In this document: one piece after another, positions 11,371-43,400 of the stretch | Layout of the letters: each line of letters starts with the position of its first letter | How positions within the stretch are numbered: the first letter of the stretch is position 1 | Assembly: GCA_029550925.1 (NCBI GenBank) | Contig: JAKPGL010000216.1 | Coordinates: forward strand, 1-48,255 | DNA length: 48,255 bases | DNA from: Planctomycetota bacterium | Lineage (GTDB): Bacteria; Planctomycetota; Planctomycetia; Pirellulales; Thermoguttaceae | Direction: 5' to 3' | Made by a program: the position numbers and the translations under genes | Notes under the pieces: generated by a model | The model's input: only the letters and a program-made list of their open reading frames with translations | What the model was told of the DNA's origin: nothing | The model's database searches: none

Positions 11371-12639
11371 ATGCCTCATGGATCATCCCTAAAGCAAACG
11401 GTGGTTTTGGTGGCAGTAGGGGTGATATGCTGTTGGCTTGGATCGCCGGGAAGCGGTGAAAAAAAGGGCCAGGGTATCTGGGCGGGAGAGTTGAGACCCA
11501 TCGGCTCCTTGGAAGGTCTGGGGTTTTGCACAGCCTCGGAAGAGCAACCTTCCGAAAATAGCCCCGCTTCCGTGGAAGATATCCATAAAGCCATTGAGCA
11601 GGTGGATGTGTATATTTCCGGCCAAGACGGCTACCACACCTACCGAATCCCGTCGGTTATTGTTACACCGAAAGGCACCGTGCTTGCCTTTTGCGAAGGC
11701 CGAAAACACGGCCGAAGCGATAGCGGCGATATTGACCTGTTGGTCAAGCGGAGCGAAGACGGTGGCCGGAGCTTTTCCAAGCAACAGATCGTCTGGGACG
11801 ATGGTCCGAATACCTGCGGCAACCCTTGCCCGGTGGTGGATCAGAAAACCGGCACGATCTGGCTCCTGATGACGCATAACCTGGGGGAGGATTCGGAGGG
11901 GCAGATCGTAGCCCGTAAAAGCAAAGGGACCCGAACGGTTTGGGTTACCCATAGCACCGATGACGGGCGGAGTTGGGCTAAACCGGTCGAAATCACCCAG
12001 CAGGTCAAGAAACCGGAGTGGACCTGGTATGCCACCGGACCGGGCTGCGGCATTCAGCTTCGCACTGGTCGGCTGGTGATTCCGTGCGATCATATCAGCG
12101 CCGATGAGCATGCCTCCCATGTGATTTATAGCGACGATGGCGGAAAGACCTGGCGTCTGGGAGGATCGGCCCCTCAAAAAACCGACGAATGTGAAGTAGT
12201 GGAACTGGCCGATGGTCGGCTTTTGCTCAATATGCGAAATTACAACCGGCAGCACCCATGCCGGGCGGTGGCTTATAGCTCAGATGGCGGCCTGAGTTGG
12301 TCGCCGGTTTCTTACGACGCCGCCCTAGTCGAACCGATCTGCCAGGCCAGCATCCGGCGGTACAGCCTGGCCGATCCGAACCGACCGGGCAGTAAAAATG
12401 TGATCCTATTTTCCAATCCGGCCGATCCGAAAGATCGCAAGAACATGACCCTTCGGATCAGTTTTGACGAGGGGAAAACCTGGCCGGTGGCGAAGCTCCT
12501 TTGGCCTGGGCCGGCGGCGTATAGCTGCCTGGCGGTTCTCCCGGACGGTACGGTGCTATGTCTCTATGAGCGGGGCCAGAAACACGCATATGAGCGGATC
12601 AGCCTAGCCCGCATCCCGGCCAAGAGATTAGGACTATAG
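11371..12639 (+). CDS. Secreted exo-sialidase (GH33-like)
   Basis: A 422-residue enzyme predicted to remove terminal sialic acid from glycoconjugates. It begins with a signal peptide (about residues 1-28) after an AGGAGG ribosome site. The family arginine motif is YRIP at residues 91-94, followed by AFCEGRKHGRSDSGD. Asp-box repeats are SEDGGRSF, STDDGRSW, SDDGGKTW, SSDGGLSW and SFDEGKTW, which mark the blades of a six-bladed propeller. Near the C-terminus AAYSCLAVLPDG holds the expected nucleophilic tyrosine, and LYERG follows. The size is normal for a single-domain bacterial sialidase. A terminator follows the gene, and neuraminate lyase and transporter genes lie next, so its product is probably imported and consumed by this cell. 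Confidence 0.92.
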   Translation: MPHGSSLKQTVVLVAVGVICCWLGSPGSGEKKGQGIWAGELRPIGSLEGLGFCTASEEQPSENSPASVEDIHKAIEQVDVYISGQDGYHTYRIPSVIVTPKGTVLAFCEGRKHGRSDSGDIDLLVKRSEDGGRSFSKQQIVWDDGPNTCGNPCPVVDQKTGTIWLLMTHNLGEDSEGQIVARKSKGTRTVWVTHSTDDGRSWAKPVEITQQVKKPEWTWYATGPGCGIQLRTGRLVIPCDHISADEHASHVIYSDDGGKTWRLGGSAPQKTDECEVVELADGRLLLNMRNYNRQHPCRAVAYSSDGGLSWSPVSYDAALVEPICQASIRRYSLADPNRPGSKNVILFSNPADPKDRKNMTLRISFDEGKTWPVAKLLWPGPAAYSCLAVLPDGTVLCLYERGQKHAYERISLARIPAKRLGL

Positions 12640-12791: not shown

Positions 12792-12987
12792 AACATTTTA
12801 GCCGAATGCAGAGGAGGCTTATTTTAGAGCAAAATTGGCCCCACGTTGTCATTCCCGCGCAAGCGGGAATCCAGGCATCCTGGGTGACTCCTTCGGAGAA
12901 ATTCTAAAGTAGCCATCTCATAGAAGCCTGGATCCCCGCTTTCGCGGGGATGACAAGAAAGGTCACTCCATTCCGCTGAAATGTTAC
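12792..12987. mobile_element. MITE-like element, copy C (196 bp, best preserved)
   Basis: The left end GTAACATTTTAGCCGAATG and the right end (reverse strand GTAACATTTCAGCGGAATG) form an inverted repeat of about 21 bases with three mismatches. Both ends sit on TA. Inside, two hairpins face each other: TCATTCCCGCGCAAGCGGGA followed by ATCCAGGC on the left, and GCCTGGATCCCCGC followed by TTTCGCGGGGATGACA on the right. Between them is the spacer CTAAAGTAGCCATCTCATAG shared with copy B. It separates sialidase from neuraminate lyase and ends 32 bases before the lyase start. Confidence 0.75.
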
Positions 12988-13019
12988 GAAACAACGAAGC
13001 GACAAGTTTTGGAATACTT

Positions 13020-13967
13020 ATGACAAACCAACCGAAAACCAAAGGGCTGATTGCCGCGGTGTTTACCCCCTTTGACTTGCAAGGGCGATTGGCCCTCCAG
13101 AAGATCGACGAGTATGCCGCCTTTTTGATCGACAATGGATTGCAGGGGGTGTTTGTAGCCGGTACGACCGGAGAAAGTCTCTCGCTACGGACCGAGGAGC
13201 GCAAAGAGCTTGCCGAGGCCTGGGCCCGGTCGGCCAACGGTCGGCTGCGGGTGATCGTCCACGTGGGGCACAACTGTCTGGACGAGGCGCAGGAGTTGGC
13301 CGAGCACGCCCAGACTGTTGGCGCTGATGCCGTAAGTGCCATGCCTCCGTGTTTTTTCCGACCGGAAAGCCTGGAGGATTTGCTGGGTTGGTGTGCGGCG
13401 ATTGCCGGGGCGGCCCCGGAACTGCCATTTTATTTTTACTACATTCCGTCGATGACCGGGGGGTCGGTTTCGGTACCGGAGTTTATCCGACGGGCCAGGG
13501 AGAGGATTCCCCATTTTGCCGGGGTGAAATTCACGCACGAAGATTTGGCGGAGTACCGGTCGGCCGTGGGCGCCGATGAAACGTTGGACATCCTCTTTGG
13601 TCGGGATGAACTGTTGCTGAGCGGTTTGCAGGCCGGCGCCCGCGGTGCGGTGGGCAGCACCTATAACTTCGCCGCCCCATTGTATCAGACGCTGATGGAA
13701 GCGTACCGGCAGGGCGATCAGACGCTGGCCGAGCAACTCCAACAGGAAGCCTGTCGGATGATCGATCTTTGTCGGGACTCCGGAGGCCATATTTTGGCTG
13801 CCTTTAAGGCGGTGATGGAATGGGTTGGCATCGACTGCGGCCCAGCCCGGCCGCCGCTTCGGAACCTTTCGGCCCAGCAGAAAACCCATCTCATCCAAAC
13901 CTTGGCCCGCAACCTGCCAGCCGTCCGTTGGTGCCGATCTAAACGGAAACCCGCTGTATTGCCCTGA
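13020..13967 (+). CDS. nanA: N-acetylneuraminate lyase (DHDPS/NAL family)
   Basis: A 315-residue class I aldolase, predicted to split N-acetylneuraminate into N-acetylmannosamine and pyruvate in the cytoplasm. The pyruvate-binding motif is GTTGES (residues 48-53), the catalytic tyrosine lies in FYYIPSMTG (Tyr141) and the Schiff-base lysine in GVKFTHE (Lys170). YYIP and FTHED favour sialic-acid lyase over dihydrodipicolinate synthase, as does the neighbourhood. The start at ATG 13020 is preferred; an in-frame ATG at 12981 lies inside the end of MITE copy C and would add 13 unrelated residues. Neither has a strong ribosome site. No nanK or nanE is visible nearby. Confidence 0.87.
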   Translation: MTNQPKTKGLIAAVFTPFDLQGRLALQKIDEYAAFLIDNGLQGVFVAGTTGESLSLRTEERKELAEAWARSANGRLRVIVHVGHNCLDEAQELAEHAQTVGADAVSAMPPCFFRPESLEDLLGWCAAIAGAAPELPFYFYYIPSMTGGSVSVPEFIRRARERIPHFAGVKFTHEDLAEYRSAVGADETLDILFGRDELLLSGLQAGARGAVGSTYNFAAPLYQTLMEAYRQGDQTLAEQLQQEACRMIDLCRDSGGHILAAFKAVMEWVGIDCGPARPPLRNLSAQQKTHLIQTLARNLPAVRWCRSKRKPAVLP

Positions 13968-14098
13968 GGAAGCAGCCTTTCCTAAAAAGGGCGGGCATAC
14001 TGTCCGGTGCATTGATGCCTGTGATGAGAAATACCTGTCCAAAACCGTCTGGTCTGCCGAAGCGATGGCCGGGGCAGCCGATTGGCCGAGCCGACTTC

Positions 14099-16954
14099 AT
14101 GGCCTTTCTGCCCTCTGCCCGCCAAAGATCCCCGTCGTCCGTGGGGATGTTTCTCACGGGCCTGACGATCCTGCTGGTCTTGGCCGGTGGATTGGACGGG
14201 GCGCATCCGGAGGAACCGGAAAGTCCGGCAGACGCCCTCGCAGATCAACCATCCTTGCCTACCCAGAATTGTTTGCTTTGGCGGCGGTTGCCCGATTTGC
14301 CGGATCCGCTGGGCGTGGCCGGGGCGTTTGTCGGCGTGCATCAGGGCGCCCTGATCATCGCCGGCGGGGCCAATTTCCCCCCAGAAAATCGCTGGCAGGC
14401 TCCCAAACACTATGAAGACCGCATCTGGGTGCTCCAGCAGCAGAGGGCGGAGGGGGTTCGTTGGTATGGGCCATTTCGGTTGCCGCACAGGGTGGCCTAT
14501 GGGGCCTCGGTCAGTACGCCGAGTGGCCTGCTGTGTATAGGTGGGGAAGACGGCCAAACGGTCTTCGACGAAGTGCTTCTGTTAACCTGGGACCCGGATC
14601 GGCAATCGGTGGACATCCGCCATTTGCCGCCTTTGCCAGAGCCGACCGCCTATGCCGGCGCCGTCCTGCTCAGCCAGCACGTGTATTTGGCGGGCGGGCA
14701 AAGCGGGCTGAGACTCCCCTCGGCTACGGTGCGGTTTTGGCGATTGGACCTGGGCAGGCTCGACCTGGGACCTGCTAAACCGGACAGAGCTTACCCTTCG
14801 GATGGTCCTGTCGGCTGGGAGCGATTGCCGGGTTGGCCGGGGCCGCCCCGAAGTCTAGCCATGGTGGCCGCCCAGCACAATGGCTTCGAGGTGTGCGTGT
14901 ATCTGATGGGCGGTCGCCGGGCGGATCCGGAAGACCCGACCGGTAAGCGGATTATCCCATTGGCCGATGTATATGAATTTTCTCCCCAGCGGTATCAAAA
15001 GGAGCGTTGGGCGGCCTTTGCCGCTAGCGGCCCGGAACCGGCGGGCGCAGTTGCTGGATCGGAGCCGACCGCGTCGGCAGGTTCCGAAGGGACGCCTATA
15101 ACCCACAATAGATCGCCCGGGTGGCGTCGGCGGGCCGACATGCCGCAGCCCTGGATGGCCGGTAGTGCCATACCGTTAGGTCCATCGCATCTAGCCATCC
15201 TCAGCGGTGATCCGGGCGCCTTGTGGGACCAAATTGAGCGACTTCAGGATCGGCATCCTGGTTTTCCCCTGCAATCCTGGCTTTATCATACGATCACCAA
15301 CACGTGGACCGCTGGACCAAAATTGCCGGCCAATCAACTGTGCAGTCCGATCGTGGGCTGGGGGAATGGTTTTGTGTTGGCCAGCGGTGAGGTGCGGCCC
15401 AGAGAGCGAAGCCCGCAGATTTGGCTGATCCAGCCGGTACGACGCTCTATGCAAGTGGGCCGGGCGGCTGTGGTCGTGCTGGCGGCCTATTTGAGCGGCA
15501 TGTTGGCTATCGGCGTCTATTTCACCCTGAAAAACCGCTCCACCAATGACTTCTTTCGGGGCGGCCAGCAGATCGCCTGGTGGTTGGCCGGCCTGAGCAT
15601 CTACGCCACCATGCTCAGTTCGATTACCTACACGGGCATCCCGGCCAAGGCCTACGCACAGGATTGGGTGTATGCGGTAGGGAATTTGATGATCGTGGCG
15701 GTGGCGCCGATTGCGGTGTATGGGGCCATGCCCTTTTTCCGGCGGATCGACGCCACCAGCGCCTATGAATATCTGGAGCGGCGGTTTCATCTGGGGGCAA
15801 GGCTATTTGGCAGCGGGGCGTTTACGCTGTTTCATCTGTGCCGGATGGGCATTGTGATAACCTTGGCTGGTCTGGCCTTGGCCGCCATGTTGGGTTGGGA
15901 CGGCCGCTGGTGTGTGCTGCTAATCGGGCTGATTACGGTGGTCTATTGCACGTTGGGCGGAGTAACGGCGGTGATTTGGACCGATGCGATCCAGGCCGTG
16001 GTGCTTCTGGGCGGGGCGGTGGTGTGTTTGGCAATGCTTTGGATGGGATTGCCGGGCGGATTGGCCGAAGCGGTCCAAACCGCCTGGTCGGAGGGAAAAC
16101 TGCGCCTGGCCAATCTCCACGGGGACTTGGTGAGTGCGCAGTTGGGGCTTTTGGCGGTGGTGCTGGGGGCGTTCGGCCAGAACCTGGCTTCCTATATATC
16201 TGATCAGGCAGTCGTCCAGCGGTATCTCACCACCCCAACCCGCCGACAGGCTGCCCGGGCCATTTGGACCAATGCTCTGATTTCCATCCCGAGCACCCTG
16301 CTTTTTTTCAGTTTGGGAACAGGGCTCTATCTATTTTATCGATGCCGACCGGAGAGGCTGGACCCTAGTTGCCATGTGGATCAAATCCTGCCGTTTTTTG
16401 TTAGTCAGGAGTTGCCCGGGCCGCTCGCCGGGTTGATTTTGGCCGGGATACTAGCCGCCGCTCAATCGACCGTCTCGGCCAGCATGAATAGCACGGCCGC
16501 TACGGTACTTACAGATTTTATCCGGCCGCTGCGGGTGCTACGGAGCGAAGGGGCCTATCTGCGTTTGGCCCGCTGGTTGACTCTGTTATTGGGCCTGATC
16601 GGGGTGGGACTGGGCGTCTATTTCGTTAACCCAGACATACGTTCCCTATGGGACAAGTTTTTGGCTGTCCTGGGGCTTTTTATGGGGGTGCTGGGCGGGT
16701 TGTTTTGTTTGGGGCTGTTTTCGCGGCGGACCAACGGCCTGGGCGCCTGGGCGGGTATTGTAGGCGGCCTGGCCGTCGTGCTCCTGGTCGCCTTTTATAC
16801 GCCGGTGCAAGGGTATGTCTATGGCGCGATCGGCATTGCCGCCTGCTTCGGGATTGGATATTTGGTCAGTCTGCTTTCGCCCCGCTGGCCGTGCCATAGC
16901 GAAGGACTGACCATATTTTCCCGTCGGCCGCCGTCCCCTAACGCCGCTTCGTGA
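14099..16954 (+). CDS. Sialic-acid mutarotase-like kelch domain fused to sodium/solute symporter
   Basis: A 951-residue fusion from this start. After a signal-peptide-like segment (FLTGLTILLVLAGG) comes a kelch propeller (about residues 50-440) with repeats such as GALIIAGGANFP, GLLCIGGEDG and VYLAGGQSG, similar to the N-acetylneuraminate mutarotase NanM/YjhT. From about residue 455 begins a sodium/solute symporter: AAYLSGMLAIGVYFTLKNRS, DFFRGGQQIAWWLAGLS, then thirteen or so helices including LAGLILAGILAAAQSTVSAS. The periplasmic propeller would present the right anomer directly to the importer. The start is uncertain: the frame is open from TTG 14012, and ATG 14099 or ATG 14147 could both give a signal peptide; ribosome sites are weak. 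It follows nanA after about 130 bases. Substrate specificity is inferred from the fusion and neighbours. Confidence 0.88.
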   Translation: MAFLPSARQRSPSSVGMFLTGLTILLVLAGGLDGAHPEEPESPADALADQPSLPTQNCLLWRRLPDLPDPLGVAGAFVGVHQGALIIAGGANFPPENRWQAPKHYEDRIWVLQQQRAEGVRWYGPFRLPHRVAYGASVSTPSGLLCIGGEDGQTVFDEVLLLTWDPDRQSVDIRHLPPLPEPTAYAGAVLLSQHVYLAGGQSGLRLPSATVRFWRLDLGRLDLGPAKPDRAYPSDGPVGWERLPGWPGPPRSLAMVAAQHNGFEVCVYLMGGRRADPEDPTGKRIIPLADVYEFSPQRYQKERWAAFAASGPEPAGAVAGSEPTASAGSEGTPITHNRSPGWRRRADMPQPWMAGSAIPLGPSHLAILSGDPGALWDQIERLQDRHPGFPLQSWLYHTITNTWTAGPKLPANQLCSPIVGWGNGFVLASGEVRPRERSPQIWLIQPVRRSMQVGRAAVVVLAAYLSGMLAIGVYFTLKNRSTNDFFRGGQQIAWWLAGLSIYATMLSSITYTGIPAKAYAQDWVYAVGNLMIVAVAPIAVYGAMPFFRRIDATSAYEYLERRFHLGARLFGSGAFTLFHLCRMGIVITLAGLALAAMLGWDGRWCVLLIGLITVVYCTLGGVTAVIWTDAIQAVVLLGGAVVCLAMLWMGLPGGLAEAVQTAWSEGKLRLANLHGDLVSAQLGLLAVVLGAFGQNLASYISDQAVVQRYLTTPTRRQAARAIWTNALISIPSTLLFFSLGTGLYLFYRCRPERLDPSCHVDQILPFFVSQELPGPLAGLILAGILAAAQSTVSASMNSTAATVLTDFIRPLRVLRSEGAYLRLARWLTLLLGLIGVGLGVYFVNPDIRSLWDKFLAVLGLFMGVLGGLFCLGLFSRRTNGLGAWAGIVGGLAVVLLVAFYTPVQGYVYGAIGIAACFGIGYLVSLLSPRWPCHSEGLTIFSRRPPSPNAAS

Positions 16955-17024
16955 AACTTGCTAGCCTCCGGCCTTTATGGAGATGGTTTTTTGGCGGGCC
17001 GGGTTTCGCTGAGGTGGGCTTACG

Positions 17025-19142
17025 TTACCGCTCTTCCTGGTGTTGGTAGTCGGTAGAGCGGATCGTGGTGATGGTTTTGCCGTCCTGAAGCACCATCCGC
17101 TGCTCGATCTTCGGGCCTTTGACGTAAAAACCGTTCTGCGGCAGGAGCCAGCGCTGGCCGTCGGCCTGCAGTTCATAAGGTTTTTCGCCGAAGTTGACGA
17201 TGACCACGGCGCCGTCGGAAAAGGTGGTCTTTTGGACATCTCGATCCGGCGTTACAAACTCGTGGGTGAGCATCTCCGTGCCGGCGATCACTTCATGCAA
17301 AATAGATGTGTTCCGATAGGTGCGAAGGAACACTTCTCGGTTTTTGTGCCAGGCGCCTTTTTGCTGATCGGCCCAAAGAAGCGGGATCGTTCCGTAGAGG
17401 ATGTTGAAGGCGTCTTTTTTGGGGGTAATTTCCGGGGCGGCTTGCAGCAGAAAATCGCTCGAATCGCCCCAGTACCAGGTGGTCACCACGCAGTCGTGGA
17501 AGACCAGTTCCCAAAGCGGCGCCCGATACCGATGGCCGATATCCCAAGTGGCATACGTTGCCCAATTGCCGTATTTATGGCCCCAAGGGCTGTCGAACGT
17601 TTCCTCTTTGGATTTCGGCTGTTTCAGATGCCCAGCAGGCCAGAAGTGATAGGCGCCGCTCATCATCCCTTCGAAGTAATCCACGTGCGGCACCGCCCAC
17701 CAGATGCCATGCTCGCCGCCGACCACCAGCCGATGCGAACGCACATAACCCAAAAGCTCCTGGCCGCACTGCCGCTTCTCGGCGCGGGTGAGCCGATGGG
17801 CCGGGTCATAACATTCGTACAGACTTTCTGCCGTAGTTACGTCAATAAACCGGCCTAAAAAAGGATACTCAGCCAACACCTTGGGAATGTCCTTTTTGGC
17901 GGTCCGAACCCACAGGGCCGGGCACCGCTTCATGAATTGCGTCTTTTTATCGAAGGTGAGCCAGGCCTTCATCCGCTGGCCGTCTGCCTGCAAGACCACG
18001 CTTTGCGGGATGAGGTCGTGGGAACGGTCGATTTTGTCTTCACTATCGACAGGGAGAATATCTGTATAGTTATCGTATTCGCTCGTCAGATACCCCAACT
18101 GGTTGATCTTACGCATCTGGTCCGGCGGAAACCGCCCGTGCAGGATCATCCGGCGGATGCCCGCCTGATGGGCCTCCTGGGCAAACCCCAGGCCCGCCCC
18201 GCCCCAGACATCCGGCGCCCCGAAAAGACGCCGCAATTCCGGATTGGCTTTGAGCTTCTCCGAAAACGGCACAATCAGGCCCTGGCTGGCTGCATAGGCC
18301 CGGTACCGTTTGGCCAGCGCTACATACCCGCCTTGGTCTGTAAAAAAGTATATTATCTTTCGCGGATAGCCGAACTGACCCATGCTCGGGTGCCACCAAA
18401 TCTGCGGGGCCCAAACCGAAACGTTCTGGTAGGCAAACTTTCGGAACTCGATCTGTCCGTCGTCGTTGGTTTCGAGAATGACCATGTACCCTCGGCCGGT
18501 TTTCAGGTCCGTAAGGCCCACCCAAGGCATATCCAGCCGATCCATCCTGAACCATCGCCGGGGCAGGTTCTCATGGCGAATAGGATATAAATGTCCATTG
18601 CAATAGTCGGCCACCGCAATCACCCCATCCTCGTCCGTGCACAGGAGCGGCTCCCAAAATCGGCTGTTGGGCATCCCGACGGAGCGGTCCGGCATATCGA
18701 CTTCGACGTTCAGTTCCGCTTTGTCGGCCGGCAGGTGCAGCGTTACCTGCACCGACTGCGGCTTGTTTTCCTTCCAGAAAAGCGGCATCTGCCAGCGCAA
18801 CAGCCCGGCCTTCTGGTCGGCCGAAATCTTTTGCAGCCGATCCTCCCCGGACTTCCATTCGGCAACCGAAGGCCAGACATGGTTGATCCTTTTATCCAGC
18901 ACCTCCCAGACGCCGGTCTTCGGATCGACGGAAACTTTAAGGTAGTTGTTCTCCAGATGCCATTTGCCGTCTTGCTGGAAGACATGGGTGGGCGGCAGAG
19001 ACGGTGGCTGGCCCGCCCACAGGTCCGCCGCTCCCACCGCCAGAACGGCCAAACCAAAACCCACACAAAACACGAGACCTTGAACCGTCTTCTTCGCCTT
19101 TCCGCTGAGGAATCCAACTGGGGCGCAGACAACTCGTTGCAT
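17025..19142 (-). CDS. Secreted glycosidase resembling GH129/GH101 alpha-N-acetylgalactosaminidases
   Basis: A 705-residue exported protein with AAAGGAG 7 bases before the ATG and a signal peptide of about 44 residues. An N-terminal beta-rich domain (about 50-270) precedes a TIM-barrel-like core. The core carries SEYDNYTDILP (354-364), QADGQRMKAW, then FIDVTTAESLYECYDP with Asp434 and VVGGEHGIWW with Glu477. From memory, the GH129 enzyme NagBb uses an aspartate and a glutamate 43 residues apart; the same spacing is found here. A beta-rich C-terminal domain ends the protein. The neighbourhood of sialidase and sialic-acid genes fits an enzyme acting on O-linked glycans. Substrate and exact family need a profile search. 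It starts 27 bases after the upstream glycosidase gene ends, so the two form an operon. Confidence 0.7.
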   Translation of the reverse strand: MQRVVCAPVGFLSGKAKKTVQGLVFCVGFGLAVLAVGAADLWAGQPPSLPPTHVFQQDGKWHLENNYLKVSVDPKTGVWEVLDKRINHVWPSVAEWKSGEDRLQKISADQKAGLLRWQMPLFWKENKPQSVQVTLHLPADKAELNVEVDMPDRSVGMPNSRFWEPLLCTDEDGVIAVADYCNGHLYPIRHENLPRRWFRMDRLDMPWVGLTDLKTGRGYMVILETNDDGQIEFRKFAYQNVSVWAPQIWWHPSMGQFGYPRKIIYFFTDQGGYVALAKRYRAYAASQGLIVPFSEKLKANPELRRLFGAPDVWGGAGLGFAQEAHQAGIRRMILHGRFPPDQMRKINQLGYLTSEYDNYTDILPVDSEDKIDRSHDLIPQSVVLQADGQRMKAWLTFDKKTQFMKRCPALWVRTAKKDIPKVLAEYPFLGRFIDVTTAESLYECYDPAHRLTRAEKRQCGQELLGYVRSHRLVVGGEHGIWWAVPHVDYFEGMMSGAYHFWPAGHLKQPKSKEETFDSPWGHKYGNWATYATWDIGHRYRAPLWELVFHDCVVTTWYWGDSSDFLLQAAPEITPKKDAFNILYGTIPLLWADQQKGAWHKNREVFLRTYRNTSILHEVIAGTEMLTHEFVTPDRDVQKTTFSDGAVVIVNFGEKPYELQADGQRWLLPQNGFYVKGPKIEQRMVLQDGKTITTIRSTDYQHQEER

Positions 19143-19169: not shown

Positions 19170-21941
19170 TCACTTTACCAAATATACAGGAATGGTTCCC
19201 ACCCGTAGTGCAGGTTGCACCATGGGATTGCCCATCAGGTCCAGGGCCTGGTAACCAGCGGGTATTGGCAGTTCGATCTGGCCGGTGCGACGCCAGAGGA
19301 TCACCAGTTCTTTGCCGTCGCCGGTGCGGAAACGGAACGCCTGCAGGCCGGCCGGTTCGGTCCATTTGCCCAGGAAGGTAAACTGCGGTCCAAGCAGTCG
19401 GGCCAGGGCGGCCTGGGCCGCATACATCTTCCGCGGCGCTCCGCCGTATTCAAAAAAGACATTGCCGGCCGACGATTCGTTCCATGCCCCGCAGATGCCG
19501 GCATGGTAGAAGATTTTTTGCACCCCGGCCGAGCCGAGCACGGCGGCAAACTTCACCAGATCGGCGGCGGCCCGAAGTTCATCAGGCCGTTGCGATCGGC
19601 TCATGGCGGCATCGCCGGCCCGAAACGGCAGAACCGCCGGGTCGTCGTCGGCGTAAATGCCCAGTTCGGTCATCCAGATCGGTTTAGCCTGCTGCCGGGC
19701 CTGCATCCGCTGCCAGCATTCCCAGTAAGCCTTTTCATAGGCGTCCGGCGCCCCGGCATGGGGATACATGTGCAGGTCCATCACATCGCACCATCGCAGG
19801 CCGTCCTGCTCGATAAACTCCCGAACGAATCGGCTGTCCGGCCACGCGCCGATGCCACCGACCACCAGGCAATTTGGATTCACCGATTTGGCCGCCTGGT
19901 AGGCCGTGCGAAGCATCTCGATATAATCGGCCGTTCCGTAACCAAAGGACTGCGGCAGGGCATAGATTGTATATAAAGGTTCATTTAGGATTTCGATGGC
20001 GGTAATCCGGCCCTGATAGTGGCGAACCGTTTGCCGGACGTACTCGGAAAACAGGTCCATACGGCGGGGTTTCATGGCCGTCAGCGTGCGGCGGAAAAGA
20101 TAATCTTGGCCCTGAGTGTGGGCTCGCACCTTTTCCGGATCCACATCAGTAGCCCACGGGGCGGTAGGAAACGGTAAAAGCACTAGCACTTGGCCGCCTG
20201 CCCGGAGCACCCGGAGGATTTGGCCGTCGGGGATCGAAAAATCAAACGGCGCCCCGGCGGCCGGTTGCACCAGGCGCCATTGGCAGGACCAATCCCGCCA
20301 CCAGCAAAGCCCGGCCTGATGGCCCAGGTGGAGCAAAAACTCCCAACTGAACGCATGATTCATGCCGAAGGCGCTATCTTGGCCGGCCGGGTATGGCTGG
20401 ATAACGGCCGCCCGGAGCGATTGTCCCTCTGCGTTGTCCGGTTTCCAGCGGATGCGGAAAAATCCCAATCGGCCGGGCAAAACACCGGTAAAGTCTTTCT
20501 GCACCGATTGCCCGGCGGGCAGGGAAAGTTCTACCGGCTGTTGCCAGACCGGCTGGTCCAGGTAATCGGTGATGCTGAGTTGGCCCCGCAAAAGGGCCGG
20601 TTGGGGACCGGCGTTATAGCCCCGCAGACGGAAGGCCAACCCGGCGGCCGGATCGGTAAAGATATTCCCAGCCCGATCCGTTTCTACGGTGCTTTCCACC
20701 GGGTGGCGAGGTTGGTGATCGGCGATTTTCGTCTCTGGTTGCCCAGGCGACGGCCCGGCTGGAGCAGGAACCGGCCGGAGTTGGACGGCGTCGATCCAGA
20801 GCCGTCCGCCCGGATGTTGGCTGCGGCGAAGATCAATTCCCAGGCCGGCCCAGAAGAAAGGTCGCTGGGCGGTGAAGGTGTGTTCTACTTTTGTCCATTT
20901 TTCGGCGCCGGTAAAGGGCTGGGAGACCATCGGGCCATCGGCATGGCGGATCAGAAGCAGGCCCGGCAAATCCGGCGGATCGCTCCGTACATAGGCAGAA
21001 AGCACATATTTTTTGCCCACCTCAGCGGGCACCCAGCCTTCATGGGCAAGCACCACACACTGAAGCCCAGCAGCCGACGGATCGAAATAGTCGAAATAGC
21101 TCACCGGCAGTCCCTCCCGGCGGAGCTCCAATCGCCAGGAGTGCTGGCCGTGGTGGGCCTGGCTGCTGTCTAGCTGGCCAAGGCGCTGAAACAGCGCCCC
21201 GCCCCAGGACGGCACATCCGGGGCAAAACATCCCCAGCCAGCCCCGCCGCATTCAAAACTGCTGTTGGGAATGATATTGCCCTGCCCAGGCCAACTGAGC
21301 AGAGGCTGCCGTTGGAGCCGAAACTCTTTGATCGGCGTGATTTCCACATCATCCAGGTAGAGCGTTCCGACGCCGGTGAACCAGATTTGCAGTCGGCCAT
21401 CTTCGGCCCGGAGGTTTTGGCGGGCCTGAAAGAAAAACGTAAACTCTTCCCATCGCTCTGTCGGGCAGAAGGATTCCTCCAGGCCGGCAGAGGCCCACTG
21501 ACGGCGGTTGACCAAACTGATGGAGACGGCGCCGGCCTCAAAGTTTTCGGCCCTGGCCCAGAGCCGCACCTGATACCACTGACCTCGCTGCACCGCCACC
21601 CGATCGTACTGGGCGAGCATGGCATGGCTGTCGGGAAAACCGGATTCAAACTGGGTGCATTGCAATCGGGCCACCTTGCCCCGCTGGGGATCGGTAAATT
21701 GGGTGAGTTTCTGCACCACGCCTCTTCGGCCGGCGGTTGCCCAGCCGTCCGGAACGCCGTCGCCATCTCGGTCCTGGTCAAACGAGCCGTTGAAGACGGC
21801 CTGGAAGCCCGGGGCTTGTGGCGCGGCTTCAGCGGCCAGGACTGTCGAAATGGTTTTCACCCATACACCACACCCTATTATCCCGGAAACCGAAAGGCAT
21901 AAAACCGACCACCGCGTGAAAACCGATTTCATCCGATTCAT
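19170..21941 (-). CDS. Secreted clan GH-A glycosidase with two carbohydrate-binding modules
   Basis: A 923-residue protein. The N-terminus has an export signal in which LSVSGIIGC could be a lipobox (Cys24); a signal-peptidase I site near VLAAEA is the alternative. Two CBM4/9-like jelly-roll modules follow: NGSFDQDRDGDGVPDGW to LYLDDVEITP (about 47-205), and IIPNSSFECGG to LWIDAVQLRPV (about 225-385). A beta domain comes next, then a TIM barrel (about 530-850) with the acid/base motif AIEILNEPL and the nucleophile in PIWMTELGI, both typical of clan GH-A (GH5/GH39-like). MDLHMYPHAG lies between them. AGAGG sits 7 bases before the ATG. It is the promoter-proximal gene of a pair with the GH129-like enzyme. 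The substrate cannot be told from sequence. Confidence 0.82.
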   Translation of the reverse strand: MNRMKSVFTRWSVLCLSVSGIIGCGVWVKTISTVLAAEAAPQAPGFQAVFNGSFDQDRDGDGVPDGWATAGRRGVVQKLTQFTDPQRGKVARLQCTQFESGFPDSHAMLAQYDRVAVQRGQWYQVRLWARAENFEAGAVSISLVNRRQWASAGLEESFCPTERWEEFTFFFQARQNLRAEDGRLQIWFTGVGTLYLDDVEITPIKEFRLQRQPLLSWPGQGNIIPNSSFECGGAGWGCFAPDVPSWGGALFQRLGQLDSSQAHHGQHSWRLELRREGLPVSYFDYFDPSAAGLQCVVLAHEGWVPAEVGKKYVLSAYVRSDPPDLPGLLLIRHADGPMVSQPFTGAEKWTKVEHTFTAQRPFFWAGLGIDLRRSQHPGGRLWIDAVQLRPVPAPAGPSPGQPETKIADHQPRHPVESTVETDRAGNIFTDPAAGLAFRLRGYNAGPQPALLRGQLSITDYLDQPVWQQPVELSLPAGQSVQKDFTGVLPGRLGFFRIRWKPDNAEGQSLRAAVIQPYPAGQDSAFGMNHAFSWEFLLHLGHQAGLCWWRDWSCQWRLVQPAAGAPFDFSIPDGQILRVLRAGGQVLVLLPFPTAPWATDVDPEKVRAHTQGQDYLFRRTLTAMKPRRMDLFSEYVRQTVRHYQGRITAIEILNEPLYTIYALPQSFGYGTADYIEMLRTAYQAAKSVNPNCLVVGGIGAWPDSRFVREFIEQDGLRWCDVMDLHMYPHAGAPDAYEKAYWECWQRMQARQQAKPIWMTELGIYADDDPAVLPFRAGDAAMSRSQRPDELRAAADLVKFAAVLGSAGVQKIFYHAGICGAWNESSAGNVFFEYGGAPRKMYAAQAALARLLGPQFTFLGKWTEPAGLQAFRFRTGDGKELVILWRRTGQIELPIPAGYQALDLMGNPMVQPALRVGTIPVYLVK

Positions 21942-22145: not shown

Positions 22146-23039
22146 TTACTCTCGCACGGAGGGTTTATCGGGGCCGGGGAAGTCGGCCGGGACCGGTTGG
22201 GTGACTTTTCCGGTGGCGGCCCATTCACAGCCACGCTGGAAGGTTACGATGAAGGCCACGCTCTTTAGTTCCTTGGGCGTATGGCCTAGGGCGTTCTGGA
22301 ACACCCGACCTTTGCCATACTGGACGGTAAATAGCAGCGGTTCATGCCGACCGGAACCGCCTTTTTCTTTTTCTTTGGGGGCAAAGGCGGTGGCAAGGAC
22401 CGTCAGATTTTTGGCCGGGCCGCGAAGCCAACCGTACAGCTCGTCTTTGACGTGGGCAAAGCGGGGCGGCAGGCCCTGCATGATCGGATGATCCGGGCAA
22501 CGGACATCCAGGACGAATTCCTGAGCGGGGCCGTGGCCGCCAGCTCGGCCGGGCGAATTGTCATGGACGATCTTGCCGTCCTGCCAATAGACGTAGGGGC
22601 CATGTTTTTCATTCCGGCCGCCCCAGCCGCCCAGGCCGATCATCTCGTTCCACTCTTTCCAGTCGGGGAAGGCGGCCAAGGCGAAATGATAGATGACCAA
22701 TCCGCCGCCGCCCGCCACATAATCCAACAGGGCCTTTTTGGTTTCTTCGGGCCAGGAGTCGCCCTGGTAGTTGCTGACCACCACATCATAGGCGGCAAAG
22801 TTCGGCTTAAAGCCGCTCATATCGGCCCCCTTGGGCGGCGAGGTGGCTACATCCACCTGAAATAGCCCAGTCTCTTCTAGTATCTTTTTGAGCACCGGGG
22901 TTGTCGATTTCCAATCGTGGCCGTTTTGGCCGTCGATGATCAGGGCCTTTAGTTTCGGCTTTTCGGCTGCTTGCAGGCCCAGAACCATCCCCACCAGCAA
23001 CGCCATCGACACACTCGCAACAATCAGTCGCTTCCACAT
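22146..23039 (-). CDS. Secreted ThuA-domain protein
   Basis: A 297-residue protein. The ATG at 23039 is chosen over an upstream start because AGGAG lies 8 bases before it and it opens a signal peptide (MWKRLIVASVSMALLVGMVL, cleavage near LQAAEK). The rest is a ThuA-like class I glutamine-amidotransferase fold: KALIIDGQNGHDWKS, YDVVVSNYQGDSWP, YVAGGGGLVIYHFA, DHPIMQGLP and YGKGRVFQNALGHT. ThuA proteins were named for trehalose use and are linked to sugar metabolism, but their reaction is unknown; planctomycetes have many exported copies. It follows the glycosidase pair's strand but is about 200 bases upstream of it and probably has its own promoter. Confidence 0.9.
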   Translation of the reverse strand: MWKRLIVASVSMALLVGMVLGLQAAEKPKLKALIIDGQNGHDWKSTTPVLKKILEETGLFQVDVATSPPKGADMSGFKPNFAAYDVVVSNYQGDSWPEETKKALLDYVAGGGGLVIYHFALAAFPDWKEWNEMIGLGGWGGRNEKHGPYVYWQDGKIVHDNSPGRAGGHGPAQEFVLDVRCPDHPIMQGLPPRFAHVKDELYGWLRGPAKNLTVLATAFAPKEKEKGGSGRHEPLLFTVQYGKGRVFQNALGHTPKELKSVAFIVTFQRGCEWAATGKVTQPVPADFPGPDKPSVRE

Positions 23040-23261
23040 CGTCGGGCTCCTTTCTTCAGCAAGAGGATTCAGCAAAAGGATCAACAAACGAACTCGGAAA
23101 GGTCTAATCCCAGGCGGGGCGTAAACCAGGTAGGTTAAGGATATCTATCCTAGAGGAAAATTATTCGGGAAGGCTACTTTGTGTAATCTAATCGAATCTC
23201 TGTGCCTAGGCAAGTATCGCAGGGAAAATTTCGATCTCCACCACGAGCAATGGAGACGGCC

Positions 23262-38507: not shown

Positions 38508-40421
38508 TCATTTCGGCGAGGAATTCCATCCAACGTTTTCCGGGAAGAGCATCGACTCGGCGAATGCGGCGGCGAAGTCCGGCTCGGCGGCCAGGTCGAT
38601 GTGCAGGGCCGTTCGCGCCAGCCGTTCCGCCTCCGCCTGGGCTTGGCGAGAAATCGCAAAAAGCCGAGCCCCCGCCAACGCCGTATTGCCTAAAAACCGA
38701 ATCCGTTCTACCGGCACTTCCGGCGGCAGTAGTCCGATCCGCTGCGCATTGCGCCGACGGATGTAATTGCCAAAACCACCGGCTAAAAATACCGCGTCCA
38801 AATCCAGGGGCCTCAGGCCGGCTCGGCGCAGGAGGAGTCGGATACCGGCCCGAATCGCACCGGCGGCCAATTGCAGTTGGCGAACATCCCGCTGGGTCAA
38901 TAGGATCGATTCGCCCGTAGCCGTCTGCTCCGCAGGACAAACGACAAAAGCCGGTTCCCCATTGGTCTGGATCCATCGGTCGCCTCCGGCTTCGTTGGAT
39001 CGTTCCGGCCGACAAAGCCGACCGTCCGGCCGAAGCCCACCAAGCCGGAGCAGTTCCGCAGCCAGGTCCACCAAGGCCGATCCGCACATTCCCTTGGGGC
39101 GTTCACTGCCGATGGTTCGGATATGCCACTGGCCGTCGAAGAAGATCCGTTCAATGGCGCCCGGGGCGGCTCGCATTCCGTGGCGGATCCGTGCCCCTTC
39201 GAAGGCAGGCCCGGCCGCCGTGGCCGCCGCAAAAAGCCGACTCCCGGCTGCCAGCACAATTTCCCCATTGGTGCCGATATCCAAAAACAAGGTGGGCCGA
39301 TCTTGCTGGGCCAAGCCGGCCGCCGTCATCCCCGCCACAATATCCCCGCCCACATAACCGCCGATGACCGGCGCCACATACACCAGGCCGGCCGGGTGGA
39401 TCCGAAGCCCCAAGCCAGCCGCTTGTCCCACCAAGCTGCCGCCTACCGCCGGGGTAAACGGCACTTCGCCCAAATACCGAGGTGTAATCCCGCAGACCAG
39501 ATGTTGCATCGTCGTATTGCCGACCAGGCTCAGATAATAAATCTCCTGGCGGCCGATGCCGGCCTGTTCGGCCAATTGGCCGATCAATTGGTCAATGGCC
39601 GAAATGACCGCCGAGCGAAGCTCCTCCAGGCAGCCCGGGCTCCGCTGGGCGTAGCTAATCCGGCTGATCACGTCGTCGCCGAAGGCGGTCTGGGGATTCA
39701 GCTCCGCCCGGACAGCCAATTCTCGGCCCGTAGGCAGGTGGATCAGAGCGGCCGCCAACGTGGTGGTCCCTATATCCACCGCTACGGCATGGTGCCGGTC
39801 GGTCGTATCGCCGGGTTCAAAATCCAGCAGGCAATTGTCGGCCAAAACCGCCGTCCCCTGAAAACCACACTGCCGAATCCGATCGGGCAACTGGCGCAGC
39901 ATCGGCCAATCCGCCCGGAGCGGCTTTTCCCCGCTCGTGGGACGTTCTTCTCCGTTGGGCGAATCCGGCTGAAGTGCTCTTGCCAGGCGCTCTATATCTG
40001 GCTTGTCGTCCTGTCGGCTGGGCGGCGGGAGGACCACAAAACGTTTGACCACCGGCGGCTGGATCGGGAAATCGGCCAGGACTTGGCCTACCAGCAAGAT
40101 TTTAGCGGCCGTCTGGGCCAGCGTGGCCTCCGGCACATGGACTACCAGGGCCTGGCGGACCGGCGTCTGGCAAGCCAATCGCCAACCGGTCTTCAGTTCT
40201 TCTGCAGAGAACCGGCGTTTTTCTTGGTCGGTGGGCGTTCCGGCGCCTTTCAGAAGCCGAACCCGGCATTTGCCGCACAGTCCCTCCCCGCCGCAGGGCA
40301 TTTGAAGTTCCAGTCCTGCCTGGGCCGCCGCCTCAACAAGCAGGGCGCCTGGCGGCACATGGACCGTGGGACCCGACGGCTCAAATCGGACAGGAATGAG
40401 AGAAGAATTTTCATCCATCAC
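38508..40421 (-). CDS. Ferredoxin-ASKHA corrinoid-activator protein (RACo/RamA-like, DUF4445)
   Basis: A 637-residue protein. The N-terminal 2Fe-2S ferredoxin domain has Cys43, Cys49 and Cys52 (PCGGEGLCGKCRVRL) and a fourth Cys in RLACQTPV (Cys84). After a linker comes an actin-fold ATPase: AVAVDIGTTTLAAALIHLPTG, SLVGNTTMQHLVCGI, LFLDIGTNGEIVLA, MCGSALVDLAAELLRLG and VFLAGGFGNYIRR. Proteins of this type use ATP to push an electron onto the cobalt of corrinoid proteins, reactivating methyltransferases. No corrinoid protein or methyltransferase is in the window, so the client lies elsewhere. It starts 53 bases after the large glycosidase-like gene ends. Confidence 0.9.
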   Translation of the reverse strand: MMDENSSLIPVRFEPSGPTVHVPPGALLVEAAAQAGLELQMPCGGEGLCGKCRVRLLKGAGTPTDQEKRRFSAEELKTGWRLACQTPVRQALVVHVPEATLAQTAAKILLVGQVLADFPIQPPVVKRFVVLPPPSRQDDKPDIERLARALQPDSPNGEERPTSGEKPLRADWPMLRQLPDRIRQCGFQGTAVLADNCLLDFEPGDTTDRHHAVAVDIGTTTLAAALIHLPTGRELAVRAELNPQTAFGDDVISRISYAQRSPGCLEELRSAVISAIDQLIGQLAEQAGIGRQEIYYLSLVGNTTMQHLVCGITPRYLGEVPFTPAVGGSLVGQAAGLGLRIHPAGLVYVAPVIGGYVGGDIVAGMTAAGLAQQDRPTLFLDIGTNGEIVLAAGSRLFAAATAAGPAFEGARIRHGMRAAPGAIERIFFDGQWHIRTIGSERPKGMCGSALVDLAAELLRLGGLRPDGRLCRPERSNEAGGDRWIQTNGEPAFVVCPAEQTATGESILLTQRDVRQLQLAAGAIRAGIRLLLRRAGLRPLDLDAVFLAGGFGNYIRRRNAQRIGLLPPEVPVERIRFLGNTALAGARLFAISRQAQAEAERLARTALHIDLAAEPDFAAAFAESMLFPENVGWNSSPK

Positions 40422-40474: not shown

Positions 40475-43400
40475 TTACTCCCCAGCAGTTGCCGGGCGGA
40501 GCCGGTAGGCAAAAATCCCCGGCGAGCAGCGGAGGCGGATTTCTTCTTTTGCTTCGTCCGGCTCAAGCCGACGGCGGGCCACCACCCGGCCTTCGATGTC
40601 TAAATGTTCCAGAATCTCTGGCCTGGGCAATTTCCAAGGTAATCTTTCCCATCGAATCCGGAGATCAAACGGCCGGTCGGCGTCCGGAAGCGGCGTAAGG
40701 AGCAGGGCTTGGCCTTCCGGGTGAAGCCGAAGGCCGCCCGCAGTAACCAGCGGGCCAAAGTCGATCGGTTTGGCCTCCGGATTTTGCCGGGCAAGCACCG
40801 GATCCTCTTCCGCCGAAAGCGGGGTCCATTGAAGCGGTGGGGCCGATCGCTTGCCGGCCTCCGCCTCCGGTTTGCCTGCCTCCTGCCCGGATTGACCCGG
40901 TCCACCGCCCGACGCCTCTTGGAGCCGAAGCAGGCCAAGCCGGATACGATGCTGCCCGTCGTCGGAGCCTAAAATCCACAGTCGTCTGCCGCTTTGGGGA
41001 TCATACAGTCCGGCCCGCAATTCCCACTGGGCGCCAGGCCGGGCGCTGGCGGGAATCTGTCCGGCGGCTTTGGCAGCGATTGGGCCGATCTGGTCCTTCG
41101 TAAAATCGCCGCCATGATGGCTGGCGTGAAAGACGATTTCTCCGTTGGCGTTGCAGAAATGCAAGAAGGGGCGGTAACCGGCCGGGATGGGCTCATCGGC
41201 TTGCCAGCGAATCAGCATTTCAAATCGGCCGTCGTCCAGCGGCTGGAATTTTTCCACCGAAAGGCGGATCGACCGAAGCCCGACCACCATCCGGCCGTTC
41301 ACATATAGTTCCTCGGGCGATTGGGCGATTTCGACGATTCGGCCATCGCGTCGGCAAATACTGGCTTCGACCAGGCCGCCTTCGACCGGCGTCCGGGCCA
41401 GGAATCCGTACTGGGGCAACTGCACGCCTTCGACGGTCCAATCCTGCTTGCCGCGGTTGACCCAGACCCTGGCGCCGCCGGACCAGAGCACTTGCTGGCG
41501 GTGCAGATCGGCCTGGGGCAGGCTGGCCCGCAGCGTCCACTCCTCTCGGCCCTCCGCGCCGCCAGCAGAGACGAACCGCACCTGCTGAATGGTTCTCAGA
41601 GCCAGCGCCTGGCCCAACCGACTCAGAAGCCAATACTTCCGAACCACATCCCGGCCAAACGGCGCCGGAACCATGGCCGGATGACCGGTCAGCACCTCCG
41701 TACTGATATAATCATCGCTCAGGATGCCGTGCAGGCGCTCGTCCAGACCGCCGGCATATCGGCCCGAATAGCCCGCTCCGTGGAGCACAAACCGGTCATG
41801 GTGGGCCGCATCGAACCAGGCAATGCGCTCGGCGTCCTGGCAGGGCCAATGCCACACGGTCCACCGATAATATCCTTTGCCCTCCGGCGGACTGACGCGC
41901 AGATGGTTCGTCTGCGCCCCGTCCAGGTAGCCGATCAGTTGGTCATGGCCGCTCTCGGAAATCTGCGGCGCATGGTCGCCCAAAAGGTCCCGAATCCAGG
42001 CAAAGAGCCTGCCCCAGGTATCTCGGGTATATTTTTTGGTAAAAAATTGACCATCGGCCGTCCAATAATCATACGGCCCGATGCTCGACCATACGTCGAT
42101 AAAATACGCCGTGGGCGCTAGCTCCTTTTTAATCGTTTCCAGGTTGGGCCGAAGGTACTCTTCCACCCGGTCGGCCCGGTAGCGGTAGGATTGGGCCTGA
42201 CGAGATTCATGGAGCCAGGCCCGCACCGGGCGCCCATCCGCCGTAAAGGCAATGTTCTTCTCGTAGGAAAACCCTTCGGCGTCCGGATAGAAGTCGATAT
42301 AGTTATCATGGAGGGCAAACGGTACGCCCGCCTGACGGCAAACGGCGATCAAACGGTGCATCTGTTCGAGGCTGCCAAACTGCGGATTGGGCGGATAGAT
42401 TTCCGGCAGTCGATAGTCGTAGCCCCACCGCTGCCAATTGTGCCAGATGACCATGCTATGGCGCAGGCCGTATCGGAAGGCTTTTTGGAGGGCGTCGGCG
42501 CTGGGGTCGTACCGGCCGCCCCAAAGGTCGAACACAAATCGGCCGGCGGCTTTGGGTGCGCCGTCGGAGGCCCGCAGACCGTTCACCTGCCGCCAATGCC
42601 GGACCGCCTGCCAGACATCCGGTGCAGGAACAAAAGTCCATGTGGCCTCGTCGGAAACATGGATGGAGCTGTGCCGCTGGGTAGGATTGATCCGGTATTC
42701 GCTCGGCGGCAAATCCACCGCCTGCACCATCGCCAAACCGCCGGCAAACTCCATGCCCACAAACGAGGTCGAAAGCCGATGACCGTCAAAACCCAATTGG
42801 AACGGCCCCGGCTGGCGCAGCACATTGCCCGGTCCGGCATAGACAGCCAGGACCGGCTGGCTCCATCGGCCAACGGCCACATCCTCAATCCGAAACACCT
42901 CCCACGGCTTCGACGCCGGGGCATCTTCCAGCCAGAACTTGGCCCGGAGCACGCCGTCGGCAATCCAGAGTTTGCCGATCAGAGTAAACGGCCCGGCCAG
43001 CGAGCGGAACCGATGCCGCCAGATGGCCTCCGGTTTCCCCTCCGGCTGTTCCGGCCCGTGGAGTTCCTGAAGCAATATCGGCGACCCTTGGGGGTCCAAT
43101 CGGGCGCCGAACAGATGGACCTGAAACCCTTGGAAATAGAGCCAGGCGTCAGCGGGGCCACCCCGACCGGCTTCTGCCGAACCTGGTTGATCTGGTCGCT
43201 GGGGGTTGGGTTCTGCCGGCCCGAAACCGATCACCGCATCCAGCAGTCCCCGCCGACCCGGCCAAACCCGCACCTGATACTCCGTCTGCTCGCACCGAGT
43301 CTTCCCCAGCAGAAAAGATCCCTCTTGGCTTGGCGGCGGAAACGGAGCTTGCGGCGGTAATTGGCCGCACTGGAGCACCGGCTCGGCCCAGTAGGCCGAG

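Follow-up and report, generated by a model that had tools for sequence, protein, structure and literature searches.

We analysed a stretch of 48,255 nt (contig JAKPGL010000216.1 of assembly GCA_029550925.1, from a Planctomycetota bacterium of the Thermoguttaceae), called the window below, whose positions serve as coordinates throughout. Its minus-strand gene at 17025–19142, with an ATG start, encodes a protein of 705 aa that is very likely a secreted retaining α-glycosidase of the GH101/GH129 group, as judged from its sequence and from a predicted structure. We favor the reading that this enzyme, the target, is probably exo-acting, falls in a separate clade that does not carry the N-acetylgalactosamine (GalNAc) site of the GH129 enzyme NagBb, and cuts some other α-linked sugar. 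In the mechanism that we propose, Asp434 would attack the anomeric carbon, and Glu477 would protonate the leaving oxygen and then activate a water molecule, completing a double displacement. The clade, referred to as clade A, would either have lost the metal site by which NagBb holds the N-acetyl group of GalNAc or have been without it from the start, and would likewise lack the NagBb loop containing Asp330. Because clade A is without this site and this loop, the substrate is probably not α-GalNAc; it would most likely be a terminal sugar of the galactose or anhydrogalactose type on a polysaccharide or exopolysaccharide, which the enzyme may cut jointly with a β-hydrolase resembling GH39 and PslG that is encoded next to it.

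The catalytic pair and the fold

In a phmmer search of the Protein Data Bank (PDB), the best sequence match of the target was NagBb of Bifidobacterium bifidum (5wzq/5wzn, E 3e-20), and the next family was DagB/ZgGH129, the 3,6-anhydro-D-galactosidase of Zobellia galactanivorans (8rzg, E 2.8e-15; 5opq, E 3.6e-15). The motifs FIDVTT and GGEHG start at residues 432 and 475 of the translation, which places Asp434 (codon 17841–17843, minus strand, as are all codons of the target) and Glu477 (codon 17712–17714) exactly 43 residues apart. Target residues 431–488 align without a gap with NagBb residues 432–489, which pairs Asp434 with Asp435 and Glu477 with Glu478, the predicted roles being nucleophile and acid/base, respectively. 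An earlier note on this DNA had proposed this pair from its spacing, given there as that of NagBb, and both the spacing and its identity with that of NagBb proved correct.

The conservation of the pair was followed in an alignment of 33 rows (A2), chosen from 44 distinct frames of relatives. Asp434 and Glu477 are invariant in all 33 rows and, because A2 holds only 8 invariant columns, their conservation is more than chance. The 11 frames that were not chosen include 9 that extend over both sites, each with the Asp and the Glu in place, and two, L021 and L026, that do not extend that far; the pair is thus kept in 42 of the 42 relatives that cover both sites. Together with Asp357, Asp361, Trp394 and Glu491, these two residues are also the same in all nine rows of clade A and in 16 rows from a second clade (clade B, see below) and from L067, at identities of 30–82%. 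Searched against the PDB, the A2 profile found NagBb in one stretch from residue 110 to 632 (E 4.6e-83) and DagB with E 1.8e-64, whereas a profile from a smaller alignment (A1, 12 rows) gave a near tie with DagB slightly ahead (1.4e-38 vs 2.6e-38).

The AlphaFold2 model of the target, built on A2, has a mean pLDDT of 87.6 and a pTM of 0.88. Residues 1–46 combine low pLDDT with a hydrophobic stretch and are likely a signal peptide, consistent with secretion. The remainder is mostly strands, then a mix of helices and strands from about residue 270, then strands again in the C-terminal part, an architecture that we read as a β-sandwich, a barrel and a C-terminal β domain. Foldseek places DagB and NagBb in the top ranks (E 4e-34 to 2e-29), followed by GH101 (1.5e-15). 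VIA-align gave Z scores of 34.0 for DagB (5opq) and of 32.0 and 30.9 for NagBb (5wzp and 5wzr), and the next folds were a Flavonifractor galactosaminidase (Z 17.9) and members of GH101 and GH36 (Z about 15–17). The drop in Z from 31 to 18 makes the place of the target in the NagBb/DagB group firm, the matches to NagBb and DagB standing far above those to all other folds. Strands 430–434 and 473–477 of the model end in Asp434 and Glu477, respectively, and the proposed placement of the pair on facing sides of an active site agrees with the model at the level of these strand ends only. The GH101 endo-α-N-acetylgalactosaminidases (EngBF and the enzyme of S. pneumoniae) share the barrel fold and are not close kin, with 8–9% identity to the target by fold alignment and no match of the target to the Pfam GH101 profile PF12905 at E up to 1.

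Each of the two characterized relatives resembles the target in part. NagBb (5wzn, 5wzp, 5wzq, 5wzr) has the same fold, the same Asp/Glu pair and spacing and an HDC motif in common with the target, and differs in overall sequence (24% identity) and in the recognition residues described below. DagB (5opq, 8rzg–8rzk) shares the EHG of GGEHG, and in the joint alignment its Asp486, Glu517 and Glu531 fall on Asp434, Glu477 and Glu491 of the target, the last of which (codon 17670–17672) is absent in NagBb. In contrast to the target, DagB is missing a 12-residue stretch between the catalytic residues, so that their spacing is 31. The DagB paper (PMC5698469) states that, of the two catalytic residues of NagBb, only Asp435 is conserved in DagB. 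Our profile alignment, contrary to this statement, aligns DagB Glu517 with NagBb Glu478 in one column, and because this column is shared, one common catalytic pair for the whole group would be the simpler reading of the sequences.

Substrate-recognition residues and the place of clade A

Over residues 110–632, the NagBb structure 5wzq, titled “quadruple mutant”, differs from the wild-type protein exactly at H271A, H320A, D322A and H366A. We take these four residues to be the metal ligands that hold the N-acetyl group of GalNAc, and Asp330 presumably contacts O4 of the sugar. In the joint alignment, the target has Trp313 (codon 18204–18206) in place of His271, His335 at His320, Arg337 (18132–18134) in place of Asp322 and Tyr356 (18075–18077) in place of His366; three of the four residues are thus replaced. 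The Trp and the Tyr are present in all nine members of clade A, and the Arg337 column reads RRRRREQQS. The fourth residue, His335, is kept in the target and varies within the clade (HHHQNHNNN). Opposite NagBb Asp330, all nine members of clade A have a gap, as seen in the joint alignment and not by superposition. According to PMC8106489, Ca2+ and Trp398 support the recognition of GalNAc in NagBb. Trp398 aligns with Thr396 of the target, and Trp394, which is kept in clades A and B, stands two residues off beside a gap. With three of the four metal-site residues replaced and the Asp330 loop missing, we rejected a GalNAcase of the NagBb type, and the GalNAc specificity that the earlier note had predicted is not supported.

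Clade A has a support of 100 in a maximum-likelihood tree, built quickly from 36 rows, in which long branches (DagB, the distant protein at 40475–44392 and others) leave the deep order unsure. The clade comprises the target, its relatives in genomes G001, G002, G026, G292 and G218, and the proteins L034 (Kiritimatiellota), L035 (Lentisphaeria) and L036 (Verrucomicrobia); the proteins of G001, G002 and G026 are 82%, 79% and 69% identical to the target. NagBb lies apart from this clade and groups, with a support of 96, with L019 and with L018 and L024 of G005, a genome of the same family as the window. The three G005 proteins L018, L024 and L030 share about 36% identity with NagBb (best E 7e-109), as compared with 24% for the target, and they keep the NagBb residues His320, Asp322 and His366. 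On sequence grounds, they appear to be better candidates for planctomycete α-GalNAcases. A larger, separate clade B (support 99, motif GSETGH), found in Thermoguttaceae and others, is 30–36% identical to the target and keeps the catalytic pair, Glu491, Trp313 and Tyr356, and differs in its shorter loop after the acid/base. Among three clade B proteins scanned for an N-terminal CBM_4_9 domain, L042 scored over the cut-off, L046 scored below it and L037 had none.

Clade A occurs in Thermoguttaceae, other Planctomycetota, Kiritimatiellota, Lentisphaerota and Verrucomicrobiota. In a sample of 392 Planctomycetota genomes, the window's own included, 16 have a match to the Pfam GH129 profile PF11308 at E ≤1e-5 and 9 have a match to the target protein at E ≤1e-70. 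Table 3 of PMC5352709 (2017) also gives a GH129 count of 1 for a planctomycete, strain SH-PL62. A planctomycete GH129 member, which the earlier note would have found notable in a sialic-acid locus, is therefore not new. The text of PMC11131199 makes no mention of GH129, GH101, sialidase, GH33 or mucin, and the main text of the Thermogutta terrifontis paper (PMC5673643) makes none of GH129. We met no characterized member of clade A in the literature searched, which was accessible in part, and one may be in print. Outside the Thermoguttaceae, the clade A proteins L034, L035, L057 and L064 are longer than the target, at 1100–1400 aa or more, and carry a CBM9 inserted near the N-terminus (L034 and L035) or a CARDB after the barrel (L057 and L064).

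The earlier note had named a GH129 profile search as a check, and the target does match PF11308 (Glyco_hydro_129), with 74.3 bits against a cut-off of 25.6; it also matches DUF5696 (PF18952) over residues 607–659 only, with 26.6 bits against a cut-off of 25.6. In a control, residues 110–632 of NagBb reached only 25.8 bits on PF11308 and scored best on DUF5696 (52.9 bits), and DagB (residues 35–536) was not matched by PF11308 at E up to 1, DUF5696 matching it better. Because NagBb itself is barely recognized by PF11308, a match to this profile neither shows nor excludes a NagBb-like function, and the check, although passed, is no test for that function. The canonical PF11308 proteins of Planctomycetota (L052–L054) belong to the same superfamily, and L053 and L054 have the Asp and the Glu in the same columns. 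They differ from the target in their scores, 375 bits for L053 and 354 bits for L054, the two scanned, and L053 has no NagBb match in the PDB at E 1 or better. For these reasons, a PF11308 match was not accepted as proof of GH129 membership. A shared catalytic pair and a Pfam “GH129” label are consequently no evidence of α-GalNAc activity, for which the named recognition residues would be better evidence.

These results mark out, in PVC bacteria, a clade whose active site is conserved. Whether clade A represents a third functional type in the GH129-like group, beside the GalNAcases and the anhydrogalactosidases, is in our judgment an even call; it would be a PVC-bacterial α-glycosidase without the NagBb metal site, to which several members outside the Thermoguttaceae add a CBM9 or a CARDB domain. 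If this is true, clade A would merit the status of a separate family, and the Pfam “GH129” label would name proteins that are barely like the founding enzyme, NagBb.

Sialic-acid genes and alternative functions

Three plus-strand genes between 11371 and 16954 look, from their sequences, like a real sialic-acid unit. They encode a sialidase (11371–12639; BNR_2 E 6.8e-42, with a YRIP motif and five Asp boxes), an N-acetylneuraminate lyase-like protein of the DHDPS family (12981–13967; NanA-like, from Pfam and from a best NCBIfam match to N-acetylneuraminate lyase, whose 176 bits are below the cut-off of 281) and, in one frame, a Kelch/NanM-like mutarotase fused to a sodium:solute symporter (NanM/SSF, 14012–16954; Pfam and NCBIfam). 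The earlier note had described the target as standing beside a sialidase, which holds loosely: the sialidase gene is real and lies 4.4 kb off, with the other two genes in between and all three on the strand opposite to that of the target. The end of the NanM/SSF gene faces the end of the target gene, the two being convergent and 70 bp apart. A weak terminator-like hairpin lies between them at 16966–16982, which is by itself no evidence, as the stretch holds 12 such sites where 8.5 are expected.

The arrangement is not conserved in the relatives of the target. On the flank where the window has the sialic-acid genes, G001 has a DUF3352 gene, G002 a diaminopimelate epimerase gene and G026 an outer-membrane efflux gene. 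A NanA-type lyase at E ≤1e-50 was found in 18 of 59 relatives, and none was found at this threshold in G001 (92% complete) or in G026 (99% complete, a single contig). The best sialidase relative of G026 is 1.5 Mb from the enzyme, and no sialidase was matched in G001 at E 1e-60. Thus, a role after the sialidase, as the earlier note had it, was not borne out, and a mucin operon that includes the sialidase was rejected on account of the convergent orientation and the lack of conservation. The nearness of the target to the sialidase gene looks accidental. A contig of G002 (L047) carries the same NanM/SSF fusion with a NanA-like gene, at 75–77% identity to those of the window, and the window's own genome (G000) encodes a second sialidase, on contig C78 at 75624–76703 (minus strand), which is 87% identical to that of the window.

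It is unlikely, in view of these results, that the target is a functional GH129 α-N-acetylgalactosaminidase that acts on mucin-type glycans after the sialidase and holds the N-acetyl group with residues other than those of NagBb. NagBb is indeed the closest single solved sequence and has the same catalytic pair and spacing, the sialidase, NanA-like and NanM-like genes are 70 bp to 5.7 kb away, and Planctomycetota are enriched on mucin media according to PMC11929135. In G001, moreover, a BNR_2 protein that is 35% identical to the sialidase of the window is encoded 14.6 kb from the enzyme. These points are set against the replacement of three of the four metal-site residues, the absence of the Asp330 loop and the separation of clade A from NagBb in the tree, as well as an A1 profile that fits DagB and NagBb about equally, the convergent genes with other genes in their place in G001, G002 and G026, and the missing NanA-type lyase in G001 and G026.

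An activity on carrageenan-type chains, that of an α-1,3-(3,6-anhydro)-D-galactosidase resembling DagB/ZgGH129, would account for the best fold match and for the alignment of three DagB acids with Asp434, Glu477 and Glu491. According to PMC5698469, mutants of each of four acids of DagB, Asp202, Asp486, Glu517 and Glu531, are inactive. Asp202, which comes from the partner monomer, aligns with His190 of the target in a gappy, poorly aligned region, and this column is not conserved in clade A (HHHECADDR). None of the seven substrate contacts named in the same paper (C198, K208, N218, H347, W455, L536 and Q566) is kept at the aligned places. With an identity to DagB of only 19–23% and with Pfam scans of 20 proteins of the window that matched neither a sulfatase nor GH127, we consider this activity quite improbable.

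It is also improbable that the sialic-acid neighborhood is functional in another sense, with the enzyme trimming a sialylated glycan other than mucin. Apart from the physical nearness of the genes, this idea draws on a weak association in the family. Among 36 family genomes, the window's own excluded, a sialidase is present in 11 of the 15 with a target relative (E ≤1e-40, clades A and B pooled) and in 7 of the 21 without one (p 0.04). Genomes with a target relative are larger as well (p 0.03), and within size classes the sialidase association falls short of significance. For NanA, there is no significant association (6 of 15 vs 4 of 21, p 0.26). Sialidase and NanA stand together on contigs of G017 and of G051 where no target relative was found, the relatives of G017 being on other contigs and G051 having none. 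The convergent and unconserved gene order speaks against this idea as well. Finally, an inactive or binding protein that retains the fold, which the loss of the recognition residues of both characterized relatives might suggest, is hardly credible, since the six residues that are the same across clade A, clade B and L067 argue for a kept active site.

The upstream hydrolase and other genes of the window

Upstream of the target, 27 bp from its start and on the same strand, lies the gene for the partner hydrolase (19170–21941, minus strand), a protein of 923 aa with CBM_4_9 domains and a GH39/PslG-like hydrolase domain of clan GH-A, identified by Pfam, alignment, model and Foldseek. In an alignment of ten sequences, an NEP motif (Glu654) and a TE motif (Glu759) are invariant, a pattern that we take to be the clan GH-A motif. 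The model has a pLDDT of 79.5, and its best Foldseek matches are the GH39 structure 5jvk (E 8e-21) and PslG (E 2e-17), an enzyme that acts on exopolysaccharide. The partner adjoins the enzyme in G001 and G002 as well. Farther upstream and also on the minus strand is a gene with a ThuA domain (22146–23087, Pfam), which is next to the partner in G001 and on the same contig in G002. The partner hints at a polysaccharide or exopolysaccharide as substrate rather than mucin. It is only a hint, because in G026 the genes for the enzyme and the partner are apart. We rejected naming the substrate by gene context, as no shared neighbor was seen around the clade A proteins L034, L035, L080 and L081, few of whose neighbors were scanned with Pfam.

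Several observations weigh against the reading that we favor, that of an α-glycosidase acting with its partner on a sugar other than GalNAc. The separation of the two genes in G026 is wide, with the partner hydrolase at 1.84 Mb and the enzyme at 4.45 Mb. The role of the four mutated NagBb residues as metal ligands is presumed here, and the enzyme could bind GalNAc in another way. The NagBb-like proteins L018, L024 and L030 of G005 are themselves without His271, Asp330 and Trp398, which indicates that these features vary even near NagBb. Although the top fold match to DagB rather than NagBb was counted against GalNAc, fold rank cannot choose a substrate. The link to sialic acid also has some support: G002 does have a NanA-type lyase, on a contig other than that of the enzyme and adjoining a NanM/SSF gene, the BNR_2 protein of G001 lies on the partner's side of the enzyme, beyond the partner and ThuA genes, and a sialidase is weakly associated with target relatives in the family.

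The window also encodes another, very distantly related member of the group (40475–44392, minus strand; 1305 aa; DUF5696, 32 bits), which aligns with the barrel of the target and has FIDVW at the site of the nucleophile and SESGH at that of the acid/base. A gene for a RACo-type protein with Fer2 and with RACo middle and C-terminal domains (38508–40421, minus strand) stands beside an asparagine synthase gene.

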